From: Gloeocapsa sp. DLM2.Bin57
GTDB lineage: Bacteria > Cyanobacteriota > Cyanobacteriia > Cyanobacteriales > Gloeocapsaceae
Length of the DNA stretch: 60,627 nt
Assembly (NCBI GenBank): GCA_007693955.1
Contig: RECR01000101.1
Coordinates: 1 to 60,627, forward strand
Direction of reading: 5' to 3'
The notes under the pieces were generated by a model, which ran no database searches, was not told where the DNA came from, and saw only the letters and a program-made list of their open reading frames with translations. The translations under genes were made by a program, and so were the position numbers. This document shows, piece after piece, positions 168-24,088 of the stretch (the first letter of the stretch is position 1; each line of letters begins with the position of its first letter).

Positions 168-1157
168 CTACTTATTGTTAATCCTTTTTCTTATAATTAG
201 AATCAAGCAAGCAAAAACTATCCCTAAACTAGGAGATGGTTCAGAAACAACAATATGATCATTTGAACTAGTAAGGGAACTAGAAGTATAAGCTATAATA
301 GTTAAATTAGTTGGTTGCTCAGGGAAATATTTTAATGCTCCTTTGACTTGTTGACTAGATATCTCGTCAATTGCAAAATAAGGACTACTATTTCCTAATA
401 TTTCTAAAGACTCAGATCCTGGGGTTATTGCTAATAAACCTACATTGATTTCGGGGTGATTGGAACTGATCATAGGTTTAGTATTTAAGGAAAAAGATAT
501 AATTTGGTTAACGAGACTAGCTCCAATTGGTAAGGTATAAAAATAAATAACAATGGTTTCTCGGGAATAGGGAACTTGACTAGTAAACTGTGAATTAATT
601 AAGCTAGTAAATTCAAAAAAAAACACTTCCTCTTGAGGGATAAAAAAGCTCATTTGCCAACCCGATTGACCTACAATTGAACTTACAGCCACTGGATTCT
701 CTGCTAGTTTATATTGCAATTGAGAAGTTAAATTAGCCGATAATAGTTGTCGATTTTCACTTAAAATAATCTGGCTTGTTCCTGTCACTTCACCATTGAT
801 AAAATCAAGGTCTAAAGGTAAAAAAGTACTAACACCATTAGGAAGAAGTTGCTCAACAACAGGAAGATTAATCGCGTCAGGATGAGGAATAAACGTTGGT
901 CCTGTTACAAATTGAGGATCTGATGCACCAAAAAAGGTTTGCTCAGTGGTAGAAATTAAAGCAAAAGCCGAGCTAAAAACAGAGGATTCTTGGAGTTTAT
1001 GGCTAAAACTATTAGCCTCTAGTGAGCTACTAGAGTTCACAAAAGTTGCAGCTTGACTAGAAGCAATAGTTAGATAAAGAAAACTGAAAGAAACACTAAG
1101 ACATAATATTACTGGTTGAGTTAATTGTGCAAAAAAAAACACTACAGGTAACCCCAA
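168..1157 (-). CDS. Secreted PEP-CTERM-like protein, last gene of the exporter operon
   Basis: 329-residue protein of unknown function. The first ~38 residues are hydrophobic and end in SSQAA, as expected of a Sec signal peptide. The last ~25 residues read EPSPSLG, then a hydrophobic stretch, then RKR, which fits the PEP-CTERM sorting signal read by exosortases in cyanobacteria and other Gram-negatives. The middle is rich in Ser, Thr, Gln and Phe, with no catalytic motif I recognise. The start lies only 3 bp after the stop of the prolyl-isomerase gene, so it is very likely the fifth gene of the operon starting at 7002. Being an envelope-anchored partner or a cargo of the exporter is inference. 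Confidence 0.7.
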   Translation of the reverse strand: MGLPVVFFFAQLTQPVILCLSVSFSFLYLTIASSQAATFVNSSSSLEANSFSHKLQESSVFSSAFALISTTEQTFFGASDPQFVTGPTFIPHPDAINLPVVEQLLPNGVSTFLPLDLDFINGEVTGTSQIILSENRQLLSANLTSQLQYKLAENPVAVSSIVGQSGWQMSFFIPQEEVFFFEFTSLINSQFTSQVPYSRETIVIYFYTLPIGASLVNQIISFSLNTKPMISSNHPEINVGLLAITPGSESLEILGNSSPYFAIDEISSQQVKGALKYFPEQPTNLTIIAYTSSSLTSSNDHIVVSEPSPSLGIVFACLILIIRKRINNK

Positions 1158-1160
1158 AGA

Positions 1161-1910
1161 CTAATCATGGTTGTGATCAAGTTCGGGGGTGACGACTTCG
1201 ATCATGGTCATCTCCTGTCGCAACCAATTGCTAAATAACCTATTGAGAATTTGAATTCTCAACGAATCATTTAACACTGGTTGAATAATTTCCTCAACAT
1301 AGATTAATAATACTCCAGTAGGAGTAATAATTGGTCTGAGAACTTGTGGTGGTTGAGCAGCAAAAATGGCTGAACTAACTTCTGGTCTTAGGTTTTCGCG
1401 ACTAACAATACCTTTATAACCACCTAGACGTCGTAGTTGGGGGTCAGAAATATATTGATGTGCTACTTGATTAAAAGTCAGTTCATTCTCAGTGATCGAA
1501 TAATACAAATCTAAAGCTAGATCATGATCATCTAAGAACACCTCATAAATAACCGCACCGATAAAATCCTGTTGATGTTGGTAAAAAAAAGGTTCAACTT
1601 GCTCAGAAAATAAATGTTCTCTGAGTTTTTCCGCAGTAATCTGAAAGCGAATTAATTCCTCAAAATCTTCAGGAGAAATATAGTTTTCTTCCAGCCAAGA
1701 TAAAGTATCTTCGGTTTTATAGAGTTTTTTAGCAATTCGCAGGCGATCGCAACCTTGTTGTAATTCTTGTTCACTAACTTGAATTTCTAATTCTTGAGCT
1801 TTAGTCATGACAATTTCCTGTTTAACAACGTCTTCAATTAGAGAAGAAATGCTTAAAGACAGTTGTAGATACTTAATAATTTTCTTGTTGGGGATGAGAA
1901 TAATTGACAT
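1161..1910 (-). CDS. Parvulin-type peptidyl-prolyl isomerase (PpiC/SurA-like)
   Basis: About 249 residues from the ATG at 1910. A longer frame opens at 1994 but would overlap the upstream HlyD gene by 80 bp, whereas the 1910 start lies 4 bp after the HlyD stop. The N-terminal half is helical and SurA-like (a TKAQELEIQVSEQEL segment and conserved F..LI.F.I...K). The second half fits a rotamase domain: F..VA..YI.DP.....GG..G.V....L.P....AIF and then P...P.G..LI.V.E. No signal peptide is seen, so its compartment is unclear. Prolyl isomerases of this type sit beside HlyB/HlyD exporters in many cyanobacteria. A folding or maturation role for the exported peptide is inference. Confidence 0.8.
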   Translation of the reverse strand: MSIILIPNKKIIKYLQLSLSISSLIEDVVKQEIVMTKAQELEIQVSEQELQQGCDRLRIAKKLYKTEDTLSWLEENYISPEDFEELIRFQITAEKLREHLFSEQVEPFFYQHQQDFIGAVIYEVFLDDHDLALDLYYSITENELTFNQVAHQYISDPQLRRLGGYKGIVSRENLRPEVSSAIFAAQPPQVLRPIITPTGVLLIYVEEIIQPVLNDSLRIQILNRLFSNWLRQEMTMIEVVTPELDHNHD

Positions 1911-1914
1911 ATTT

Positions 1915-3414
1915 TTAGAGTTCCAGACCAGTATTTTGTAATTTTTGAAAAGGCTCAAGAATAAAATCCATAACAGAACGTTGACGCACAACAATTTCTG
2001 CTGTCGCAGTTTGACCAGGGGTGAGGACTATTTGACCATTTTTATGGTTAATGTAGGGATGATCAATAACTATTTCTAGCTCAAAAACCTTGACTGTACC
2101 TTGAATTGTTTCTTGAATTTTTGAAGTAGGAGCAATCCAGCTAACCTCTCCTTCTACTACTCCATAATCTTGAAAAGGATAAGCATCAAATTTTAATTTG
2201 ACAGTTTGTCCTAACTTAATAAAGCCACTATCAGCAGCTGGTATTTCAGCCCTAAGAATCAAAGGACTATTTTGAGGAGCAATACTCGCAAATAATTCCC
2301 CAGTTTGAATGACAGAGCCTGGTTCTTTAACGGGTAAATTAAAAATTACTCCCTCTATAGGTGAGCGAAAAATATATTGTTCTAGTTGTTTTTCTAGAGA
2401 AAATATATTAGCTTTGGTTTCGTCAATATTAGCCCTAAGACTAGTTAAATCTCCTTCGGTTTTTTTGATTTGTTCAGTAATTTTAGCTAAAGCCAATTGA
2501 TTAGCATAAATAAGACTTTGATAACTTTGTTGTTCTTGGGCTAAAATCAGACGAGCTTCTTCAATTTTGGCTGTAGCTTCTTGCTCCATGATTTGATAGC
2601 TATTTTCTTGTTCTTTGTAGTAAATTTCTGCTTGTTCTACCTCTAATTTAGTTTGTTCTACTTCCTGTTGTCTTTCTTTTTCAGACTGGATAGTATCTTG
2701 TAAATGTTCAAATGGTAAAACTCCATTATCGAAAGCTTCTTGATAACGGGGAATTTTTTCTTGAGCTGTTTCTAATCTAATTAAAGCTGATTGATAGTTA
2801 GTGAGTTTAACTTCTACAGCGTTTCTAGCTTGTTGTAGTTGCTTCTCTCTTTCTAGTTTAGCTAATTCAAAGTTAGCGATTAAAGAATCTATTTGTTCTT
2901 GTGCTTGTTGAAGTTTTGTTTGTTTTTCTAATTCTTGAGCTTGGTTTTGTTGTACTTGAGTTTGATAAGTAATCTGCAGTTGATTCTGAAGATTGACTAA
3001 TTGTAAAAATTGTTCGTTTTGGCTCTGTAATTTTTGCTGAGTTTTAGCCAAATCGTTATTAAGTAAATCCCTATCACATTCACCTAGGATTTGATTAAAA
3101 CTAACGTATTCTCCCTCTTGTTTAGGAATAGAAACTAAAGTACAGACAATGGGAGAATCTAGTTCAATCGGTCTATTTTTAGGTTCAAGTCTGCCTTGGG
3201 CTGTACCTGTTTCATCTACTTTAGCTAGCATAGCCCAAGGGACAAGAATACTAGTAAAGAGGATAAAAGCATACAATAAACCTCTTGTCCAGGGACGTGG
3301 TAAACCTTCTAAAAACTCTAGAGTACTATCAGACCAAATCTCTCTTGTAGGCTCTGATACTAGAGAAGAAGTATCTGGAGCTTTCTTTGGGGAATTAACT
3401 ATTTCAGAAGTCAT
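1915..3414 (-). CDS. HlyD-family membrane fusion protein of a C39 ABC exporter
   Basis: 499-residue periplasmic adaptor. A cytoplasmic N-tail of ~43 residues is followed by one transmembrane helix at about 44-64. The first half of a lipoyl/barrel region comes next (GTAQGRLEPKNRPIEL). A very long Gln/Glu-rich coiled coil spans roughly 115-345, and the second half of the barrel follows (FRSPIEGVIFNLPVKEPGSV, then a beta domain ending TPGQTATAEIVV). This is the standard HlyD arrangement linking an inner-membrane ABC exporter to an outer-membrane channel. The gene starts 14 bp after the exporter stop. No TolC-like gene is present, so a channel encoded elsewhere would be needed. Confidence 0.9.
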   Translation of the reverse strand: MTSEIVNSPKKAPDTSSLVSEPTREIWSDSTLEFLEGLPRPWTRGLLYAFILFTSILVPWAMLAKVDETGTAQGRLEPKNRPIELDSPIVCTLVSIPKQEGEYVSFNQILGECDRDLLNNDLAKTQQKLQSQNEQFLQLVNLQNQLQITYQTQVQQNQAQELEKQTKLQQAQEQIDSLIANFELAKLEREKQLQQARNAVEVKLTNYQSALIRLETAQEKIPRYQEAFDNGVLPFEHLQDTIQSEKERQQEVEQTKLEVEQAEIYYKEQENSYQIMEQEATAKIEEARLILAQEQQSYQSLIYANQLALAKITEQIKKTEGDLTSLRANIDETKANIFSLEKQLEQYIFRSPIEGVIFNLPVKEPGSVIQTGELFASIAPQNSPLILRAEIPAADSGFIKLGQTVKLKFDAYPFQDYGVVEGEVSWIAPTSKIQETIQGTVKVFELEIVIDHPYINHKNGQIVLTPGQTATAEIVVRQRSVMDFILEPFQKLQNTGLEL

Positions 3415-3428
3415 GATTAAATCACCTT

Positions 3429-6407
3429 TTAAACGTTAGCGAGTTGTCTTTGATAGAGATGGAAATAAATACCCTGTTTGCTCATTAATTCCCCATGAGT
3501 GCCTTGTTCAGCTAAAATACCTTCATTGAGAACCAAAATGAGATTAGCGTGGCGTATAGTTGAGAGACGATGAGCAATAATAATGGTGGTATGATGTTCG
3601 CGAATTTTCTCTAAATTGACTTGAATGACTGCTTCTGATTCCGCGTCTAAATGACTAGTAGCTTCATCAAAAATTAGTACGGGAGGATTTCCTAACAAAG
3701 CACGAGCGATGGCAATTCTCTGACGTTGTCCACCTGATAATAAGCCACCACTTTCACCAATATTAGTGTCATAACCTTGTGGTAATTTTTTGATAAAAGA
3801 ATGTGCTCCCGCTTTAGTAGCGGCTTCTATAATCTCAGCATGAGTGGCTTCAGGACGTCCGAGAGCGATATTTTCTTCAATAGTACTACCAAAGAGAAAA
3901 GTATCTTGGTCAACCACTCCTATATGTTGACGTAGAGATTGTAAGGCTATTTCCTGAAGATCATAACCATCAATCAAGATTTTCCCTTTCGTTGGAGAAT
4001 ATAGCCCTAGGATTAACTTAGCGATCGTACTTTTTCCTGAGCCACTGTAACCAACCAAGGCGACGGTTTGACCTGGTTTAATCTCAAAGTTAATATTTTC
4101 GAGAACATTAAACTTATTTTCCAGGTGATAGCGAAAGGTTACCTGTTCAAAGCGAATATGACCTTGAATCGAGGGTAAATTCTGACGAGATTGATTTTCT
4201 AGATCTTGTTCGGGATCAGTATCAAAAATATCATTGATTCTTTCTACCGCAATAGTCACCTCTTGGAACTCATTCCATAATCCTGATAATCGCTGAAAAG
4301 GACTAATCACATTACCTACTAGCATATTGAAAGCCACTAACTGTCCAATAGTCATCTCATTTTGAATTACTAACCAAGCTCCATAGGAGAGTAAAGCGGT
4401 GGTTGAGAAGGTTTGTAAAGCTCCACTGAGTATTTGCAGTTTGTTGCCAATGATTTGAGAGTCAAACCGTTTTTTGACCAGTTTGTTTAATAGTTTTTCC
4501 CATTCCCAACGCACTGTATGTTCAACAGCCATTGATTTAATGGTGCGAATTCCTGTCAAAACTTGGATGAGATAACTACTCTCAGCTGCTCCTGCTTTAA
4601 ACATTTGACGTGATATGTTTTTCAGTATGGGAGTAGCTAACAAAGTTAGTAAGACTAAAGGGGGAACAGTCATTAACACTAGTAATGAGAGTTTAGCACT
4701 GTACCAAAACATCACCGCGATATAGACAAACACGGTAAGTAAATCCAGGATAATTGAAAGGGTTTCTCCTGTGAGAAAGCGTTGAATTTTAGTATTTTCT
4801 TGTACCCTAGCGATGATATCTCCTACGTAACGGGATTCAAAAAAGGATAAGGGGAGACGAAGGGTGTGACGAATAAAACCAACGATCAACGCTACGTCTA
4901 AACGATTGGCGGTATGTTCTAACAGATATTGGCGTAAACCACTCATGATTACCTTAAATAAGCCAAAAATCAGTAATCCTGAGCCTATTGCTACTAAGGT
5001 ACTAGTACTCCGCTGCACTACGACTCGGTCCAATAGTAATTGCGTAAAAACAGGAGTGATTAAGCCAAATAACTGTATAAACAACGAAGCAATAAATATC
5101 TCTGTTAAGATCCACCAATGGGGTTTGAGTAAGGTAAAAAATCGCCACAAAGATGATTTATCATTAACTGTTTTCTCTAGCTTGAGGGTAGGTTCAAGTA
5201 ATAATACGTAACCAGTCCAACCCGCTTGAAACTCTTTATAACTCAGGACTCGTTGTCCTTGAGCGGGATCGCCAATAATTACTTTTTTAGGGGTAATTTC
5301 ATAGACGACTAGATAATGATTTCCCTCCCAATGGGCGATCGCAGGTAGTGTTTGTTCTGCTAATTTATCTAGGGTAGCTTGTCGTGGTTTAGTTGTAAAA
5401 CCAATACCTTCTGCTGCTCTAGCTAAACTCCCCAAAGATGCTCCTTCTCTACCGACGTTGGTCATATCCCTGAGACGATTGAGGCTAAATTGTTTACCAT
5501 AGTAACGACTCACCATGACTAAACAAGCTGCCCCACAATCTGTAATACTCTGTTGATAGTAAATGGGATATTTTTTAAAGGTTTTTTGCCACCAATGAGC
5601 TAGTTTTTGCTTAGAGAGAGGAAAATAATCCTTAACTGTTGCTTGGGAAGATGGTTGACGAATTGTAACAGGTTTGGGTACTTGATGAGGAATTGTTCCT
5701 AGTGATGGTATGATAGTTAAGGCTTTAAGCCAATTTGTTTGATTTAATGTATATAACTCAGTGAAAGTTTTAACGCGCCAATGTTCAGTATTTGGTGAAG
5801 GGATCTCAATCATTCCCCCTGTTAATCTCTTTCCTGAGTTATTTTCTAATTCTCCTTGACGGATTAACCAAAAAGCCGATTTTTTCTGTAACTGTGCTGA
5901 TACATCACCTTCAACCAGTGTATGTCGCTCTAATAAGGGGACAATTTCCTTGAGTTGTAATTTTTGTTGATGATCAAGCTGAACTACTCTACACCAAAGA
6001 ATCAATAAATCTTTCAACATTGCTTGTTGATGGAGATTTTTACTAATCTGAGGATATTTCGCTATCAAGGTTTCTAGTAAATCTGCTCCGAGATAATATA
6101 ACTTTAATCTACTAGAGGCTTTGACTGAATAGTCTTGAAAATTATCTTCTCTAAACAGACTTGCTTCACCAAAACAAGAACCAGGTTTCAAGGTTAATAA
6201 TAGGTTATCACCATCAAAAAGAATCCTAGCTTGACCTTCAACTATAATGAATAGTCCTGTTTGAGGATTAGATGAGTTCCAACATAATTGATAAGGGGTT
6301 GGTTCTAGGGTTTCAATCTTAGTTAAACATTGCTCATAGTCTATAGGTGACAGTTGAAACCCAAATAATTCAGACAAGTCTTTGAGAGACAGTAAAGATG
6401 GCATCAT
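3429..6407 (-). CDS. C39 peptidase-containing ABC exporter with N-terminal cyclic-nucleotide-binding-like domain
   Basis: 992-residue one-piece exporter. Residues ~30-115 form a cNMP-binding-type fold (LFIIVEGQARIL, then PGSCFGEASLF). A second, more degenerate copy may follow (~160-215). The C39 peptidase (~283-410) has the catalytic Cys291 in TDCGAAC, the His in HWEGNHYLVV and the Asp in IGDPAQG. Six transmembrane helices span ~425-720. The nucleotide-binding domain has Walker A GYSGSGKST (Lys792), signature LSGGQRQ, Walker B VLIFDEATS and H-loop IIAHR. C39 exporters remove double-glycine leaders while exporting the peptide. All active residues look intact. It lies second in a five-gene operon. 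The small GG-leader protein at 7382 is the obvious candidate substrate. Confidence 0.93.
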   Translation of the reverse strand: MMPSLLSLKDLSELFGFQLSPIDYEQCLTKIETLEPTPYQLCWNSSNPQTGLFIIVEGQARILFDGDNLLLTLKPGSCFGEASLFREDNFQDYSVKASSRLKLYYLGADLLETLIAKYPQISKNLHQQAMLKDLLILWCRVVQLDHQQKLQLKEIVPLLERHTLVEGDVSAQLQKKSAFWLIRQGELENNSGKRLTGGMIEIPSPNTEHWRVKTFTELYTLNQTNWLKALTIIPSLGTIPHQVPKPVTIRQPSSQATVKDYFPLSKQKLAHWWQKTFKKYPIYYQQSITDCGAACLVMVSRYYGKQFSLNRLRDMTNVGREGASLGSLARAAEGIGFTTKPRQATLDKLAEQTLPAIAHWEGNHYLVVYEITPKKVIIGDPAQGQRVLSYKEFQAGWTGYVLLLEPTLKLEKTVNDKSSLWRFFTLLKPHWWILTEIFIASLFIQLFGLITPVFTQLLLDRVVVQRSTSTLVAIGSGLLIFGLFKVIMSGLRQYLLEHTANRLDVALIVGFIRHTLRLPLSFFESRYVGDIIARVQENTKIQRFLTGETLSIILDLLTVFVYIAVMFWYSAKLSLLVLMTVPPLVLLTLLATPILKNISRQMFKAGAAESSYLIQVLTGIRTIKSMAVEHTVRWEWEKLLNKLVKKRFDSQIIGNKLQILSGALQTFSTTALLSYGAWLVIQNEMTIGQLVAFNMLVGNVISPFQRLSGLWNEFQEVTIAVERINDIFDTDPEQDLENQSRQNLPSIQGHIRFEQVTFRYHLENKFNVLENINFEIKPGQTVALVGYSGSGKSTIAKLILGLYSPTKGKILIDGYDLQEIALQSLRQHIGVVDQDTFLFGSTIEENIALGRPEATHAEIIEAATKAGAHSFIKKLPQGYDTNIGESGGLLSGGQRQRIAIARALLGNPPVLIFDEATSHLDAESEAVIQVNLEKIREHHTTIIIAHRLSTIRHANLILVLNEGILAEQGTHGELMSKQGIYFHLYQRQLANV

Positions 6408-6423
6408 AACTGTTGTTCAATCC

Positions 6424-7002
6424 TTAATTGATTTCTAAATCTCTAATCACTATTCCACCAGGAGTACAAATACTTGGGGGAGGAGTGACATGATTGTCTT
6501 TTAAAGATAAATTCAGGCTTTTTAACAAACGATTAAGATGACGAGGAGAGATCTCAATAGCAAATTCTTGAGCTAAATGTTTACTTAGAGATTGTCCCGT
6601 CCAACGATTAAAAGAATAGCCATAGTTTTTCGGACCATTAGCTATTAATTCCGTCAAACGAGCTAAGTAAGCTTCATTGACTTTTCTGGGACGACCGATT
6701 AATCTTTCACCCCAAAGATGGGCTAAACCTATTCTTGCCATTGTCATCCAATAGCGAGCGGTATCGGGAGCACATTGTAAAGTCTTACATATAGTTGTTT
6801 GAGCAAATCCTTCATCAGCTAAAAGCATTATTTCAATTCTTTGACGATATGCTTTACGATGCTCTTTTTTAAGGCTTTCTTTAAGAAAATTTCGTTGAAA
6901 ATCCGTTAAATACTTGCCATTAATCGATGGATATCTATTTCTCTTGCCCGTATCTTGATTATCCTGAGACATCTTCTCATCACAAGCTTTTTGTAACATC
7001 AT
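6424..7002 (-). CDS. IS630-type helix-turn-helix protein without DDE domain, first gene of exporter operon
   Basis: 192 residues. The front part matches the N-terminal DNA-binding region of IS630-family transposases: one HTH (DEGFAQTTICKTLQCAPDTARYW), the linker GRPRKV, and a winged HTH (GYSFNRWTGQSLSKHLAQEF, then SPRHLNRLLKSLNLS). The protein stops just where the DDE nuclease would begin and ends in a ~25-residue tail containing PPPSICTPGG. There is no transposase remainder, inverted repeat or target duplication nearby. It starts a tight operon with the exporter (16-bp gap), so a domesticated regulator is more likely than a dead transposase; that is inference. ATG at 7002 is used; 6999 and 6972 are alternatives. 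Confidence 0.7.
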   Translation of the reverse strand: MMLQKACDEKMSQDNQDTGKRNRYPSINGKYLTDFQRNFLKESLKKEHRKAYRQRIEIMLLADEGFAQTTICKTLQCAPDTARYWMTMARIGLAHLWGERLIGRPRKVNEAYLARLTELIANGPKNYGYSFNRWTGQSLSKHLAQEFAIEISPRHLNRLLKSLNLSLKDNHVTPPPSICTPGGIVIRDLEIN

Positions 7003-7044
7003 GATATTAATACCATTTAATTGTTTTGCTAGGCATGTAACTGT

Positions 7045-7073
7045 ATTGTAAAGAGAAAATAATTTAATGTCAA
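7045..7073 (-). promoter_or_regulatory. Sigma-70-type promoter of the exporter operon
   Basis: On the minus strand TTGACA (7073-7068) is separated by exactly 17 bp from TACAAT (7050-7045). That is near-consensus, and it lies about 40 bp upstream of the HTH gene start at 7002. It is the only strong promoter seen ahead of the five-gene run. Confidence 0.7.
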
Positions 7074-7298
7074 CTAGATTAAAATTAAGTTTTGCTACAA
7101 ATAAAAAAAAGACATAAAACTAGTTATTGTGTCTAAAAAATAGCCCTTATTTGCTAAACCAATAGTAATAATATGACATAGAAAAATAACAAGAGTTAAC
7201 ACCTAAACCCTAACTCAACAAGATTGTTTTATTTTCTATTACCTCTAATTTAGAGACATAATTAAAGTGTTTTAGCGAAAAAAAGATTGATTTACTAC
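7074..7298. other. AT-rich divergent regulatory spacer
   Basis: Central part of the 379-bp gap between the exporter operon (minus) and the double-glycine peptide gene (plus). No open frame with a believable start was seen. It is AT-rich with runs of A and T, and it is flanked by outward-facing promoters on both sides. This is the natural place for operators shared by the two transcription units. I see no clear long palindrome. Confidence 0.5.
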
Positions 7299-7327
7299 TT
7301 GACAGCTCAAGATGAAAAATATAAAGT
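7299..7327 (+). promoter_or_regulatory. Candidate promoter of the GG-leader peptide gene
   Basis: Consensus TTGACA at 7299-7304. A 17-bp spacer leads to TAAAGT (7322-7327); the overlapping TATAAA at 7320-7325 is an alternative with a short 15-bp spacer. The predicted transcript would have a leader of about 50 nt and then a strong AGGAG ribosome-binding site at 7368-7372, 9 nt before the ATG. Confidence 0.5.
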
Positions 7328-7381
7328 TGAACTGTGAGAAATCACCTTAGTTTTCCTGAACAAATTTAGGAGTTTAAATCA

Positions 7382-7684
7382 ATGACTATTGCAATTAGAA
7401 ATATCGAAGTTAGTTATATCACCGAAGTAGAAAACACTTCTGCTATTATTGGTGGAGCTTTAATCGAAAACTTTGTTGGCTTTGCTAACCCCATGACCTC
7501 TATCGTTTTCACTCCTGTTGGTGGTAACTATCCCAACGTATTAGAAGCGTTAGAATTATCTATCGACTATGCAGGTCGCAATGGTTTTGTTAGTGAAGTT
7601 TTACATGGTGGTAGTTTTGGTTTCTTAGCTACACAAGCTGCTTTCATTCCTTTAAGTCTCTTACAACAAGCAGCTGGAGCATAG
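7382..7684 (+). CDS. Small double-glycine-leader protein, predicted cargo of the C39 exporter
   Basis: 100 residues. The first 25 look like a C39-type leader ending EVENTSAIIGG, with a hydrophobic residue two before the GG (Gly24-Gly25), which predicts a mature 75-residue peptide starting ALIENF. The mature part has no Cys and is rich in Ala, Gly, Phe and Leu, so it looks unmodified rather than lanthipeptide-like. Two internal GG pairs (47-48 and 76-77) lack a leader-like context. It has its own promoter, a strong AGGAG site and a terminator just after the stop. Small GG proteins exported by C39 transporters are known in cyanobacteria, for example the EbfG biofilm proteins of Synechococcus elongatus. 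I recognise no close family, and its function is unknown. Confidence 0.8.
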   Translation: MTIAIRNIEVSYITEVENTSAIIGGALIENFVGFANPMTSIVFTPVGGNYPNVLEALELSIDYAGRNGFVSEVLHGGSFGFLATQAAFIPLSLLQQAAGA

Positions 7685-7733
7685 ACCGATTACTTAGCTT
7701 TGCGTCATTAGAATAGTTAAATAATGAAAATTT

Positions 7734-8396
7734 TCAACAGGATCTAGTATCCTGTTTTTTTATTGAGTTAGGTTTTTGATAGACAATACGAACAAGAGAA
7801 GGAAACTTAATTTCTGTGGTTTTAGCTAAACCTAGGCTTTCTAATCGTTGTAATTCACTTTCAGACATAGCCCAAGGAGGACCAGATCTAGGTTGATTTT
7901 CTGCCCTAAAATTAGTTACCAATAACAACAACCCTCCTGGTTTAATTAAATTGGCGATCGCCTCTAAGACTTGGTCTCTAATTTCGATGGGGAGAGATTG
8001 AATAGTGCGCACTTCTACCACCAAATCAAACTGATGACGCCAATTCAGAGGTAAATCTAGTAAATCAGCTACCTGATAGTTAACCTCAGAAGCAGGAAAA
8101 CGTTGACGACACCAAGTTATAGCTGTAGAGGAGACATCAAAAGCTGTCACCGTGAAACCAACTTGAGATAACACTTCACAATCATCACCTAACCCACAAC
8201 CAATCACTAAAGCTTGTTTACCCCTACCATCGGGTTTAGCTTCATTCAACCAATCTACTAATAGGGGATGGGGGGTCAAATTTGCCCAGGGAATTTGTCG
8301 GGGATCTTGATTAGCTTGTTGATAAACCGACTCAAACCAAGCGCTAGGTTTCCCCTCTGCTAATGCTTTATTGACTAACTTTTCTATTTCAGACAT
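7734..8396 (-). CDS. Class I SAM-dependent methyltransferase (TPMT-like)
   Basis: 220 residues. The SAM-binding motif I is ALVIGCGLGDDCEVLS, with the acidic motif II at TVTAFDVSSTA. A DLLDLP segment and the post-motif FDLVVEVRTIQSLP follow, then motif III IKPGGLLLLVTNF. The N-terminal W...Y.....PW....P.P.L region resembles the thiopurine-methyltransferase superfamily. The substrate cannot be read from sequence. It is a lone gene convergent with the GG-peptide gene and sharing its terminator, so a link to the secretion locus is not supported. Confidence 0.8.
   Translation of the reverse strand: MSEIEKLVNKALAEGKPSAWFESVYQQANQDPRQIPWANLTPHPLLVDWLNEAKPDGRGKQALVIGCGLGDDCEVLSQVGFTVTAFDVSSTAITWCRQRFPASEVNYQVADLLDLPLNWRHQFDLVVEVRTIQSLPIEIRDQVLEAIANLIKPGGLLLLVTNFRAENQPRSGPPWAMSESELQRLESLGLAKTTEIKFPSLVRIVYQKPNSIKKQDTRSC
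7737..7761 (+). terminator. Intrinsic terminator after the GG-leader peptide gene
   Basis: Perfect 7-bp stem ACAGGAT/ATCCTGT (7737-7743 and 7749-7755) with a CTAGT loop, followed directly by a run of T. It lies 50 bp after the peptide stop and overlaps the 3' end of the convergent methyltransferase gene. Confidence 0.8.
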
Positions 8397-8480
8397 AAAT
8401 TAAGTATCTATACTGATGACATTTTTAAGGATTTATTATCTAAATCATAATATCATTTTAAGGCAACAGGAAATAATTGT

Positions 8481-9959
8481 ATGTCTCAAGTTAATGGCGT
8501 CATGATGCAGTATTTTCACTGGTATAATCCAGCTGATGGGCAATTATGGCAACAAGTAGCTAAAAATGCAGCGGATTTAGCTAAAGTGGGGATTACTGCT
8601 TTATGATTACCTCCTGCCTATAAAGGCAATGGAGGTGGTTATGATGTAGGTTATGGGGTATATGATTTATTCGATTTAGGAGAATTCGACCAAAAAGGCT
8701 CAGTCAGAACCAAATATGGTACAAAAGATGAATATCTCAACGCCATTAAAACCCTACACGATCATAATATCAAAGTTTACGCTGATACAGTACTCAATCA
8801 CAAAATGGGTGGAGACGCTACAGAAGAAGCCAAAGCTACACCCTATCCCCAGGACGATCGCCTCAATCCTATAGGAGATTTAGAAGACGTCAAGGTATAT
8901 ACTCATTTTTATTTTCCTGGACGTCAAGGTAAATATTCTAATTTTGAATGGCATTGGTGGCATTTTGACGGGGTAGATTATAATGATTATCATCCCTCAA
9001 GACAAAATGTGGTTTATCTTTTTGAAGGTAAACAATTTGACGATTATATTGCCCTAGAAAATGGTAACTTCGCCTACTTAATGGGAGCAGATTTAGACTT
9101 TGAGAATGAGTGGGTAAGAGGAGAATTAACCCACTGGGGTAAATGGTATCTTGATACCACAGGAGCAGATGGTTTCCGTTTAGACGCACTTAAGCATATT
9201 TCTGCTTGGTTTTTCCCCCAATGGTTAGACGAGATGGAAAAACACGCGGGTAGAGACTTATTTGTAGTCGGGGAATATTGGTCACCAGATTTAGAGAGTC
9301 TCCACTGGTATCTAGACTCCATGGGAGACAGAATGTCTTTGTTTGACGTCACCCTCCACTATAACTTTCACTACGCTAGTAAAGCAGGTGGTAACTTTGA
9401 CATGAGAAATATACTCAAAGGTACATTAATGGAGCAGAGACCATATCACGCCGTAACCTTTGTCGAAAATCATGACTCTCAACCCTTACAAGCTTTAGAA
9501 TCGGTAGTTGATCCTTGGTTTAAACCCCTAGCTTACGCCATTATTCTGCTCAGAGCCGAAGGTTACCCCTGTATCTTCTATCCCGATTACTACGGTGCTG
9601 ACTACGAAGACTACGGTAAAGACGGGAATAAATACCATATTCATTTACCCTCCCATCGTGAGATTATCGATAAATTCCTCTATGCACGCCATAATTACGG
9701 CTATGGACCTCAATACGACTACTTTGATCATTGGAATCGTGTTGGTTGGACTCGTTTAGGAGATGAAGAACATCCCAAGGCTATGGCAGTATTACTAAGT
9801 GATGGACCAGGTGGCACTAAATGGATGGAGGTGGGTAAACCCAATACTAAATTTATTGACCTGACCGAACATATCACCGAACCTATCTATACTAATGATC
9901 AGGGCTGGGGTGAATTTGCTTGTAAGGGTGGCTCTGTGTCCGTTTGGGTTGAAGCTTAA
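8481..9959 (+). pseudogene. Cytoplasmic alpha-amylase (GH13) interrupted by one in-frame UGA
   Basis: The full frame from ATG 8481 would give 492 residues of a bacterial intracellular alpha-amylase: start MSQVNGVMMQYFHWY, then KVGITAL, stop, LPPAYKG. The stop is TGA at 8604-8606 (codon 42), exactly where the family has Trp in its A(V/L)WLPPA motif, so a single G-to-A change from TGG explains it. The rest is open and undamaged. The catalytic triad is present: Asp235 in GFRLDALKH, Glu265 in VVGEYW and Asp332 in ENHDSQ. Translation restarting at ATG 8805 would lose the first barrel strands and be inactive. A recent nonsense mutation, a sequencing error or low-level readthrough are all possible. 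Confidence 0.85.
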
Positions 9960-10412: not shown

Positions 10413-11096
10413 TTGATTAATCAGACCTTAATTAATAACCCTGTCAAGCTACTATTAAGATGGTGCTCAACCTGGTCAATGTTTTGGGGTGCAGGCTTTT
10501 TAGTCTCAGTACCCGTTTTTGTCCAAGCACCCTTAGTACGCTATTATCCCGAATTTACCCTGTTATTAACCTTGGGTTGGCTATGGTTAGCCCATTATCT
10601 CTATAGCAATCAACAGAATAAAATCTGGGGAGACTTGTTATTTGGCTTCAGTTGGAGTTGGTTAACAGGTTCAATTTATTGGGGATGGTTACGCTATGAA
10701 CCCTTAGTTCATATTCCTATAGAATCATTGATGTTACCCTTAGCTTTGTGGTGTTTAGGGCGAGGAATAGGCAAAATTGGTAATTATTTCTACTTAGGTT
10801 CACTCTTAGGTACAGCTATCACCGATTTATACTTCTATATCAATGATTTAATCCCCTATTGGCGTCAAATTATGGTTACAGATACTGCTTTAGTTAGTCC
10901 TATTTTACAACAGGCGATCGCGCAGGTAGCCACTCCTTGGGGTATTAGTTGGGCGGTAGTTTTAGCCAATTTCCTTTTAGGAGTAAGTCTATGGGCTATG
11001 CAAAAAAACCAATTACACTGGTGGGCTTTTGCAGGAGCGGTTTTATGTACAATTCTGGTAGATGCTTTATTCTGGGTAGGTGCAGCTTTTGTCTAA
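10413..11096 (+). CDS. DUF3120 membrane protein
   Basis: About 227 residues of a cyanobacterial and plastid-lineage membrane protein of unknown function (DUF3120). The body begins at [18 protein letters not shown] and has five to seven hydrophobic helices, with the family's [10 protein letters not shown] and [13 protein letters not shown] stretches. The start is uncertain. The longest frame begins with a TTG at 10290 inside a GGAGTGCC...GAGTGCC direct repeat that does not look coding. TTG 10413 is the better fit in length; ATG 10479 is the shortest option. The 3' end overlaps convergent lipB by 30 bp. Confidence 0.8.
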
Positions 11097-11723
11097 ACAT
11101 ACCTGGAAAACTTCAGCAAAGACTTGAGGTAAATCATCCCTGACTTGAGTTAGAGTTAATTCGGGTAAAAACTGAGTCAAACATCCTACGGGTTTATCGC
11201 TGATTCCACAGGGAATAATACGCCCAAAACCTGCTAAATCCGGATAAACGTTGACAGCAAAACCGTGCATAGTAATCCAACGTTTAACTTTAATACCAAT
11301 AGCTGCTATTTTATAACCTTCAAGCCAAACTCCAGTAAACCCTGGTAAACGGTAGGCTTGAAGGTCATAGATTTTTAATAACTGAATAATGACTTCTTCG
11401 AGTTGACGTAAGTACCAGTGTAAATCTGTTTGATAATGGTGCAAATTCAGAATAGGATAACCCACTATTTGTCCTGGATAGTGATAGGTGACTTCTCCTC
11501 CTCTTTCAATACGATAAACTTGGTATTCACTCTGATTGAGGTCTTTTAAATAAGCTAAATTTGCACCTGTACCTAGAGTATATACGCAAGGATGTCCAAG
11601 TAACCAGAGAATATCAGTTAAATCCTGGTTGTCTAATCTAGCTTTAACTAGTTTTTGTTGTCGTTGCCAAGCGATTGGGTAAGGGATTAAATCATCTTGA
11701 ATTAGTAAACATTTTTTTAGCAT
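11067..11723 (-). CDS. lipB: Octanoyltransferase LipB
   Basis: 218 residues. It moves octanoyl from acyl carrier protein to lipoyl domains, the first step of lipoate attachment. Diagnostic motifs are [14 protein letters not shown], the [12 protein letters not shown] signature, the [16 protein letters not shown] Lys-containing motif and [11 protein letters not shown] with the catalytic Cys. The length is usual for the family. It stands alone and faces the DUF3120 gene. Confidence 0.95.
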
Positions 11724-11897
11724 TATAAAGAGACATTAAGTATCAGATGTTTTCAACTATACATAGTGCTAATCTAGAAGATAAGAAGATCACTTAATGA
11801 GGAGAAAGGTTCAAGAACTAACTCAACCACACATCAACGAGATTCTCAACCAAAAACCCCAATTTTTTTTAAGTTAAATCTAAATGGAGTAGAAACT

Positions 11898-12494
11898 ATG
11901 AAGCTTTTGATTCAGGGCAACAATATCGTCGTTACCGAAGCAATCCATGATTATGTCCAACAGAAGCTAGAAAGAGCAGTTAAACATTTTCACAGTCTTA
12001 CTACTAAGGTAGATGTTCATCTATCAGTAGCACGTAATGAAAGAATCAGTGATAAACATAAAGCAGAAGTCACAGTTTATGCCAATGGTGCAGTTATTCG
12101 TGCTCAAGAAGGTAGTGAGAATCTATACGCTAGTATAGACCTAGTGGCTGATAAAATTGCACGTCAATTGCGTAAATACAAAGAAAGAAAACTAGAGAAG
12201 AAAACCCACGCTCAAGTTAAAGCAACCGATGTAGTCGCCGAAGATCCGGTAACAGATAATTTAATCGGCGATCGCACTCCTGAATTACCCTCAGAAGTGG
12301 TCAGAATGAAATATTTCAGTATGCCAGCAATGACTATAGAAGAAGCCTTAGAACAACTACAATTAGTTGACCACGACTTCTATATGTTCCGTAATAGCGC
12401 TACCGATGAAATCAACGTTATCTATATACGCAATCATGGTGGTTATGGTGTTATTCAACCTCGTAACGGTAGCAACGGCAACGGTAATCACTGA
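11898..12494 (+). CDS. lrtA: Long-form ribosome hibernation factor LrtA/HPF
   Basis: 198 residues. The N-terminal ~100 form the ribosome-binding HPF/YfiA domain ([20 protein letters not shown]). An acidic linker leads to the C-terminal dimerisation domain ([21 protein letters not shown] through GYGVIQP). In cyanobacteria this is the light-repressed transcript product that pairs inactive 70S ribosomes. GGAG sits before the ATG. The ~170-bp leader region upstream would suit the long 5' UTR known for lrtA, but I see no definite structure. The last 7 bp overlap convergent cobN. Confidence 0.95.
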
Positions 12495-23848: not shown

Positions 23849-24088
23849 CTAGAAAGCTTGTTCTACTTCAGCTATTTCAGGAATAAACTCACGTAAACGA
23901 CGCTCAATACCCATTTTTAGAGTCATAGTTGAACTAGGGCAAGTACCACAAGCGCCTTGAAGACGTAATCTGACGATCGGTCCATCAATTTCCACAAGCT
24001 CCACATTACCACCATCAGCCATTAAATAAGGGCGCATTTCATCTAAAACTTTTTCGACATTATCAGGAGTAAGGGCTAAGGTTGACAT
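23849..24088 (-). CDS. NifU C-terminal-domain Fe-S scaffold (Nfu)
   Basis: 79 residues, a stand-alone NifU C-terminal domain. [19 protein letters not shown] and GACGTCPSS carry the CxxC pair that holds a transferable [4Fe-4S] cluster. This is the form that supplies photosystem I and ferredoxin clusters in cyanobacteria (NifU-like, Synechocystis ssl2667 type). The length is typical, and the gene is monocistronic. Confidence 0.94.

Follow-up and report, generated by a model that had tools for sequence, protein, structure and literature searches.

Class II microcins are made with a double-glycine (GG) leader, leave the cell through a PCAT exporter together with an HlyD protein, and have Gly/Ala-rich cores. 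The CTB family bacteriocins (NF038167) form a cyanobacterial family with GG leaders. Cyanobacterial clusters around GG precursors were grouped by Wang, Fewer and Sivonen in 2011 and, as the text of that study describes them, groups I and II bring together a long-type C39 exporter with an N-terminal nucleotide-binding domain, HlyD, a SurA-type rotamase and a nearby GG peptide (PMC3140520). The same study catalogued 290 cyanobacterial GG precursors as putative bacteriocins, the products of most of which are unknown, and its text reports very little sequence conservation among their cores (PMC3140520). In Synechococcus elongatus PCC 7942, the GG proteins EbfG1-4 are reported to depend on PteB for secretion, to be needed for biofilm formation and in part to form amyloid (PMC4997328, PMC9981879). 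The HetC protein of Nostoc PCC 7120 is described as a PCAT with an N-terminal cNMP-binding domain, and no membrane-fusion-protein gene or GG peptide is reported to have been found near hetC (PMC10986499).

We analysed a stretch of 60,627 nucleotides from Gloeocapsa sp. DLM2.Bin57 (the window), in which a small gene for a GG peptide lies close to genes for a long-type PCAT, an HlyD protein and a SurA protein, the combination that the text of PMC3140520 gives for groups I and II. The locus differs from those groups in its additional linked genes for a helix-turn-helix (HTH) protein and a PEP-CTERM-like protein, and in a peptide that falls into no Pfam or NCBIfam precursor family. It shares with HetC the cNMP-binding domain of the PCAT. 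It is likened by description to EbfG1-4 and PteB, in that small GG proteins without known mature domains accompany a C39 exporter; however, the EbfG genes form a four-gene operon whereas the window has one gene, and a biofilm function is shown there and proposed here. From class II microcins the window peptide is set apart by the lack of an evident immunity gene and by an acidic, conserved core. Neither the window peptide (up to E 10) nor its homologue matches NF038167; a peptide from L036, one of the related PCAT loci, gives a weak match of 18.3 bits, where the cut-off is 32. The core family appears to be new; the kind of system has been known since 2011.

The precursor gene and its leader

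The open reading frame (ORF) 7382-7684 (+) starts with ATG and encodes 100 residues, of which a 25-residue leader (7382..7456) ends in IIGG and a Cys-free core of 75 residues follows (7457..7681); in all these points the earlier note was confirmed. Codon log-odds are 0.45 per codon; eight window genes, divided into 43 pieces, give 0.34 +/- 0.13, and the five other frames of the ORF give negative values. By codon use and the existence of a homologue in a genome of another family of the same order (G553), the ORF looks coding and is taken as a real gene. A simple GG-leader filter passes two of the 124 window ORFs of 40-170 aa, this one and 23849-24088, which encodes a NifU-type protein instead.

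The flanking signals that had been reported were found, with differing weight. An AGGAG ribosome-binding site is read from the sequence at 7368..7372 (+), 9 nt before the ATG. The TTGACA promoter is present as a sigma-70-like match (TTGACA-17-TAAAGT, 10 of 12 positions, 7299..7327, +), but it is no evidence of a strong promoter: 2 kb of sequence holds seven promoter-like sites against 7.4 +/- 2.2 in shuffles, and since this is chance level the match carries no weight. The hairpin with a T run at 7736..7756 (+) makes a reasonable intrinsic terminator, as had been suggested (region 7685-7775, z -2.03; 6 of 200 shuffles equally stable), and stands at the 3' end of the methyltransferase ORF, which is convergent. 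A scan of 6400-8500 against Rfam gave no match.

The leader had been called textbook in its hydrophobic spacing, which is overstated, because it is two residues shorter than that of the homologue and hydrophobic at -4 alone of the four usual positions (-4/-7/-12/-15 = I/T/T/S). At -15/-12/-8/-7/-4 the window leader reads S/T/N/T/I, a register that results from the two residues missing between SYITEV and IIGG. The G553 homologue has a textbook C39 leader, which reads I/M/E/V/I, and a further GG peptide of that genome reads I/I/E/M/I. In the C39 peptidase LahT, residues -4, -7 and -12 are reported to occupy hydrophobic pockets (PMC6363468); all three are hydrophobic in the homologue (I/V/M) and only the first in the window copy (I/T/T). 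However, strictly hydrophobic residues at all three positions occur in just 11 of 26 leaders from related loci, and six of the 26 fail at both -7 and -12, so the deviation is compatible with cleavage. These six also argue against the idea that the window gene is a decaying or poorly exported copy whose shortened leader has lost its fit to the C39 groove. That idea would account for T/T/S at -7/-12/-15 where the homologue has V/M/I, but the frame is intact, codon use is gene-like and a terminator-like hairpin follows, and we consider it improbable. Judged by its residues, the window leader appears right in kind, yet not textbook, and we treat the gene as that of an exported peptide.

The leader type is that of other peptides in PCAT loci. 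A strict leader pattern, which was written after the window leader and the leaders of the unicellular cyanobacterium SU2 had been seen and is circular to that extent, finds GG peptides in 20 of 50 PCAT loci, a few of which are the same region twice. It returned 32 rows; after removal of the query and five duplicates, 26 leaders entered a profile, 23 of which make up the leader alignment A1. The consensus in PCAT loci is MxxIxISDLx...ESFLxELxxxE...GG, with which the window leader shares IxIxxI, SYITEV and IxGG. Of 279 window ORFs, the peptide ORF scores highest against this profile, which was built without the query. The result is weak, however, at 4.3 bits (E 0.7), and the runner-up follows closely at 3.7 bits; 67 of 20,000 and 51 of 20,000 shuffles score as well as the window leader. 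The profile finds no other convincing GG peptide in the source genome.

The exporter operon and related loci

The earlier note had presented the peptide as an orphan, but a divergent minus-strand operon for a C39 exporter begins 379 bp from its gene. The first operon gene (6424..7002) encodes a 192-aa HTH protein that is akin to the N-terminal part of IS630 transposases. It is followed by genes for a long-type PCAT of 992 aa with cNMP-binding, C39 peptidase, ABC membrane and ATPase domains (3429..6407), an HlyD-type periplasmic adaptor (1915..3414), and a PpiC/SurA-type peptidyl-prolyl isomerase of 249 aa (1161..1910, start taken at ATG 1910). The PCAT contains the motifs that we take to be those of the C39 and ATPase domains. 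The last gene (168..1157) encodes a predicted exported protein with a C-terminus that is PEP-CTERM-like by our own reading, there being no family match; its predicted structure reaches pLDDT 38. PEP-CTERM sorting is possible, because the source genome has two exosortase-family genes. The genome also encodes two further C39 proteins, in the stretches around which no GG-leader ORF was found; proximity leads us to infer that the PCAT at 3429-6407 is the cognate exporter.

The HTH and methyltransferase genes are 730 bp apart, and the peptide gene sits in this gap. Apart from ORFs that overlap it, the gap contains just two more of at least 20 aa: one of 25 aa at the edge and a hydrophobic one of 35 aa (7095-7202, -). 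The latter starts with GTG, lies in the intergenic region of the divergent genes and could be a chance ORF, a tiny membrane peptide or a small immunity peptide. The eight neighbouring proteins scanned include a general methyltransferase and no LanM-type enzyme, and Pfam and NCBIfam give no match to lanthipeptide, NHLP or Nif11 families, in keeping with the earlier view that the peptide is unlike lanthipeptides and nitrile-hydratase-leader peptides.

Related exporters were compared in 30 loci from named records and 20 further stretches, a few of which are the same region twice (L092, for instance, is the contig of L013). The closest exporter is 89% identical and belongs to L013, from an uncultured Gloeocapsa MAG (G002) of the window's genus. 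The contig of L013 ends inside the exporter gene. Because the peptide region of G002 is probably unassembled, the absence of the peptide there is uninformative; no HTH homologue was found in G002 either, an empty search answer that proves little. An HTH homologue occurs in 38 of 51 loci (G553 included, the window locus not counted) and mostly adjoins the exporter. As a separate observation, the short protein resembling the IS630 N-terminus in most exporter loci may be a domesticated regulator. An isomerase homologue occurs in 44 of the 51 loci, with 77% identity in G002 (where the counterpart also has 249 aa), 50% in G553 and 48% in SU2.

In G553, the genes for HTH protein, PCAT, HlyD, isomerase, PEP-CTERM-like protein, peptide and a second GG peptide form one run. 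Genes for lipB and HPF/YfiA lie not far from it, and homologues of both are found at 11067-12494 in the window; from these shared surroundings, the two loci are probably related as a block. Between window and G553, identities are 61% for the PCAT, 56% for the HTH protein, 51% for the peptide, 50% for the isomerase, 48% for HlyD and 34% for the PEP-CTERM-like protein. The peptide is about as conserved as HlyD and the isomerase, and more so than the PEP-CTERM-like protein.

Other features of the related loci vary. The window, G002 (L013), G553 (L123) and SU2 (L014:15961-16992) all have a cluster-linked exported protein with a PEP-CTERM-like end, which contains VPEP in SU2; the protein matches no family. 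In G002, a methyltransferase gene begins about 10 bp after the PEP-CTERM-like gene (L092, 2-1567), whereas the methyltransferase gene of the window is at the opposite end, past the peptide gene; the cluster has been rearranged. The SU2 locus carries two tandem pairs of near-duplicate GG peptides (82/83 aa and 90/95 aa; L014, 12838-15177), convergent to the exporter operon. Immediately downstream of the homologue in G553 comes the second GG peptide (L123, 4103-4405, -), whose leader is textbook; a search of the window yielded no counterpart of it.

The divergent arrangement bears on the possibility of a secreted signalling peptide, perhaps sensed by a regulator of the cluster. The peptide gene shares its 379-bp upstream region with the HTH gene at 6424-7002, and one PCAT, HetC, which Nostoc requires for differentiation, has been proposed as a signal exporter (PMC10986499). 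Against this, no sensor kinase is present among the eight neighbouring proteins scanned, and the peptide gene of G553 is not divergent to the HTH gene. A length of 75 aa is also long for a signalling peptide, and we regard this role as unlikely.

The core and its homologue

The core is acidic (pI 4.25; K+R minus D+E = -4), and its homologue more so, with net charges of -4 and -7, respectively. As the earlier note had supposed, it belongs to no known family: Pfam and NCBIfam give no match to the window peptide up to E 10, and at most chance-level NCBIfam matches to the homologue. Of the checks proposed in the note, the profile search accordingly returned no known family, and structure prediction gave an unusable model (pLDDT 42). 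A search of 388 genomes of the order yielded one accepted homologue, the G553 peptide of 99 aa (E 4.8e-24). No true relatives were found among 100 relatives and 388 genomes of the class, sets that overlap with each other and with that of the order, and a two-row profile run over 195 relatives of G553 and the 388 genomes of the order added no further accepted homologue. Viral contigs contained no relative, nor did genome contigs searched with exact short peptide patterns, which detect close relatives only. A genome of the same genus (G001) lacks the peptide, and its best PCAT match (E 4.1e-155) is not a close one; this single case fits with joint occurrence of the two. The core is not described in the titles and abstract openings covered for cyanobacterial GG peptides, C39 leaders, EbfG, bacteriocins and PEP-CTERM proteins, and it may be listed among the 290 precursors of PMC3140520. 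The core family would therefore comprise two members, both found in this analysis, and is apparently unnamed.

The two peptides align over 90 positions, 46 of them identical (about 51-52%). The most conserved core block comprises residues 61-79, IDYAGRNGFVSEVLHGGSF (7562..7618, +), with 17 of 19 residues identical and the consensus IDYAGxNGFVSExLHGGSF in both members. All three GG pairs are kept in the homologue. Different codons are used at 24 of 48 identical residues, and dN of 0.43 and dS of 1.79, the latter near saturation, give dN/dS of about 0.24, which points to purifying selection on the peptide. The regions upstream of the two genes share no significant similarity (p 0.07).

A match to a known cytoplasmic family, which the earlier note named as the result that would speak against it, was looked for and not found. 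The nearest approach was to ArsH. The order search matched 28 genomes besides the source and G553; among the matches of this and the other genome searches, the loci compared (L002, L004-L009, L106-L108) all contain the same ArsH-like protein, named after the annotation of one plasmid match. A cytoplasmic relative of ArsH, or of some other enzyme, with an incidental GG would explain these repeated weak matches, the best of which in the genome searches has 22.3 bits (E 7.0e-4 per genome); pairwise comparison gives up to 37.4 bits and about 35% identity over residues 27-93. However, the homologue does not share the match, ArsH reaches no more than 5.5 bits against a two-member core profile, and of three order-search matches under E 0.001 none is left with the two-row profile at the same genome number. 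ArsH homology was rejected because homologue and two-member profile do not share it; with no Pfam or NCBIfam match to the peptide, we give an enzymatic origin hardly any credence, and hold to that of an exported peptide.

Other candidates were set aside as well. The SU2 leader resembles that of the window (score 36, none of 3000 shuffles as good), but it was selected from 4221 ORFs. The A-type cores of SU2 (L014), which look good by eye, align at shuffle level (p about 0.3 to 0.6), and the B-type cores reach p 0.02 to 0.03 against the window core and 0.7 to 0.8 against the homologue, which we attribute to chance. In L126 (G068), about 40 residues of a 117-aa ORF (1420-1773, +) that neighbours a TraD-like gene and has no GG leader look like part of the core (YYG...NL.EALDLAI). 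The ORF has E 0.004 and 20 bits against the core profile, with none of 3000 shuffles as good; it is provisionally treated as chance because it is the best of 195 genomes, among which about 0.8 such matches are expected. L125 contains a long ORF with a weak match and no wider resemblance, likewise chance. The matches of the homologue to ZupT (17 bits, cut-off 252) and to a Xanthomonas plasmid (E 0.08) were treated in the same way.

Proposed export and role

The locus combines a short ORF with a GG-ending leader and a PCAT nearby. From gene content and homology, the product is very probably an acidic peptide that is processed by a PCAT and secreted by the type I route. The earlier proposal of an exported double-glycine peptide is borne out in this respect by the neighbouring PCAT operon, the homologue in a like cluster and the related leaders in PCAT loci. 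We propose that ORF 7382-7684 encodes the precursor of a secreted 75-aa peptide, that the C39 domain (about residues 279-407) of the PCAT at 3429-6407 would cut after IIGG to leave a mature peptide starting ALIENF, and that PCAT and HlyD would export the acidic core, with an outer-membrane channel encoded elsewhere. The SurA/PpiC protein would probably aid folding of the peptide in the periplasm.

What the peptide does after export is much less certain. An antimicrobial of the class II microcin or bacteriocin kind, exported by the neighbouring PCAT against related cyanobacteria, would be in line with the Gly/Ala-rich core of 75 aa (GRAVY 0.60) and with export logic that is the same as in microcin V-type systems, and clusters of this kind are termed bacteriocin clusters in the text of PMC3140520. 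Several features sit poorly with killing: no immunity gene is evident beside the peptide gene, although the hydrophobic 35-aa ORF at 7095-7202 (-) might be one; the core is acidic in both members; and, in contrast to the cores of low conservation described in PMC3140520, it is under apparent purifying selection and has stayed similar across two families of the order. An antimicrobial is in our judgement possible but rather doubtful.

We prefer a non-killing role, because the core is acidic, lacks an evident adjacent immunity gene and is conserved under apparent purifying selection. In line with this, the peptide is about as similar between the two clusters as HlyD and the isomerase, and the genome has its two exosortase-family genes. 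By analogy with EbfG1-4, we tentatively suggest that the exported peptide acts as a protein of the cell surface or matrix, where the PEP-CTERM-like protein might be a partner. The three functions listed in the earlier note are all retained, matrix protein ahead of bacteriocin and bacteriocin ahead of signal. Taken as a whole, export together with a proposed surface or matrix role is likely to be the best explanation of the locus.

We speculate, as an unlikely extension, that the conserved core defines a new family of cyanobacterial proteins, acidic and exported, which would join the PEP-CTERM-like surface protein of the cluster in a surface or matrix assembly of two parts. If so, each part would take its own route out of the cell. 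Core and cluster can be traced together across two families of one order, and since the core is conserved rather than variable, a role other than that of a bacteriocin becomes testable.
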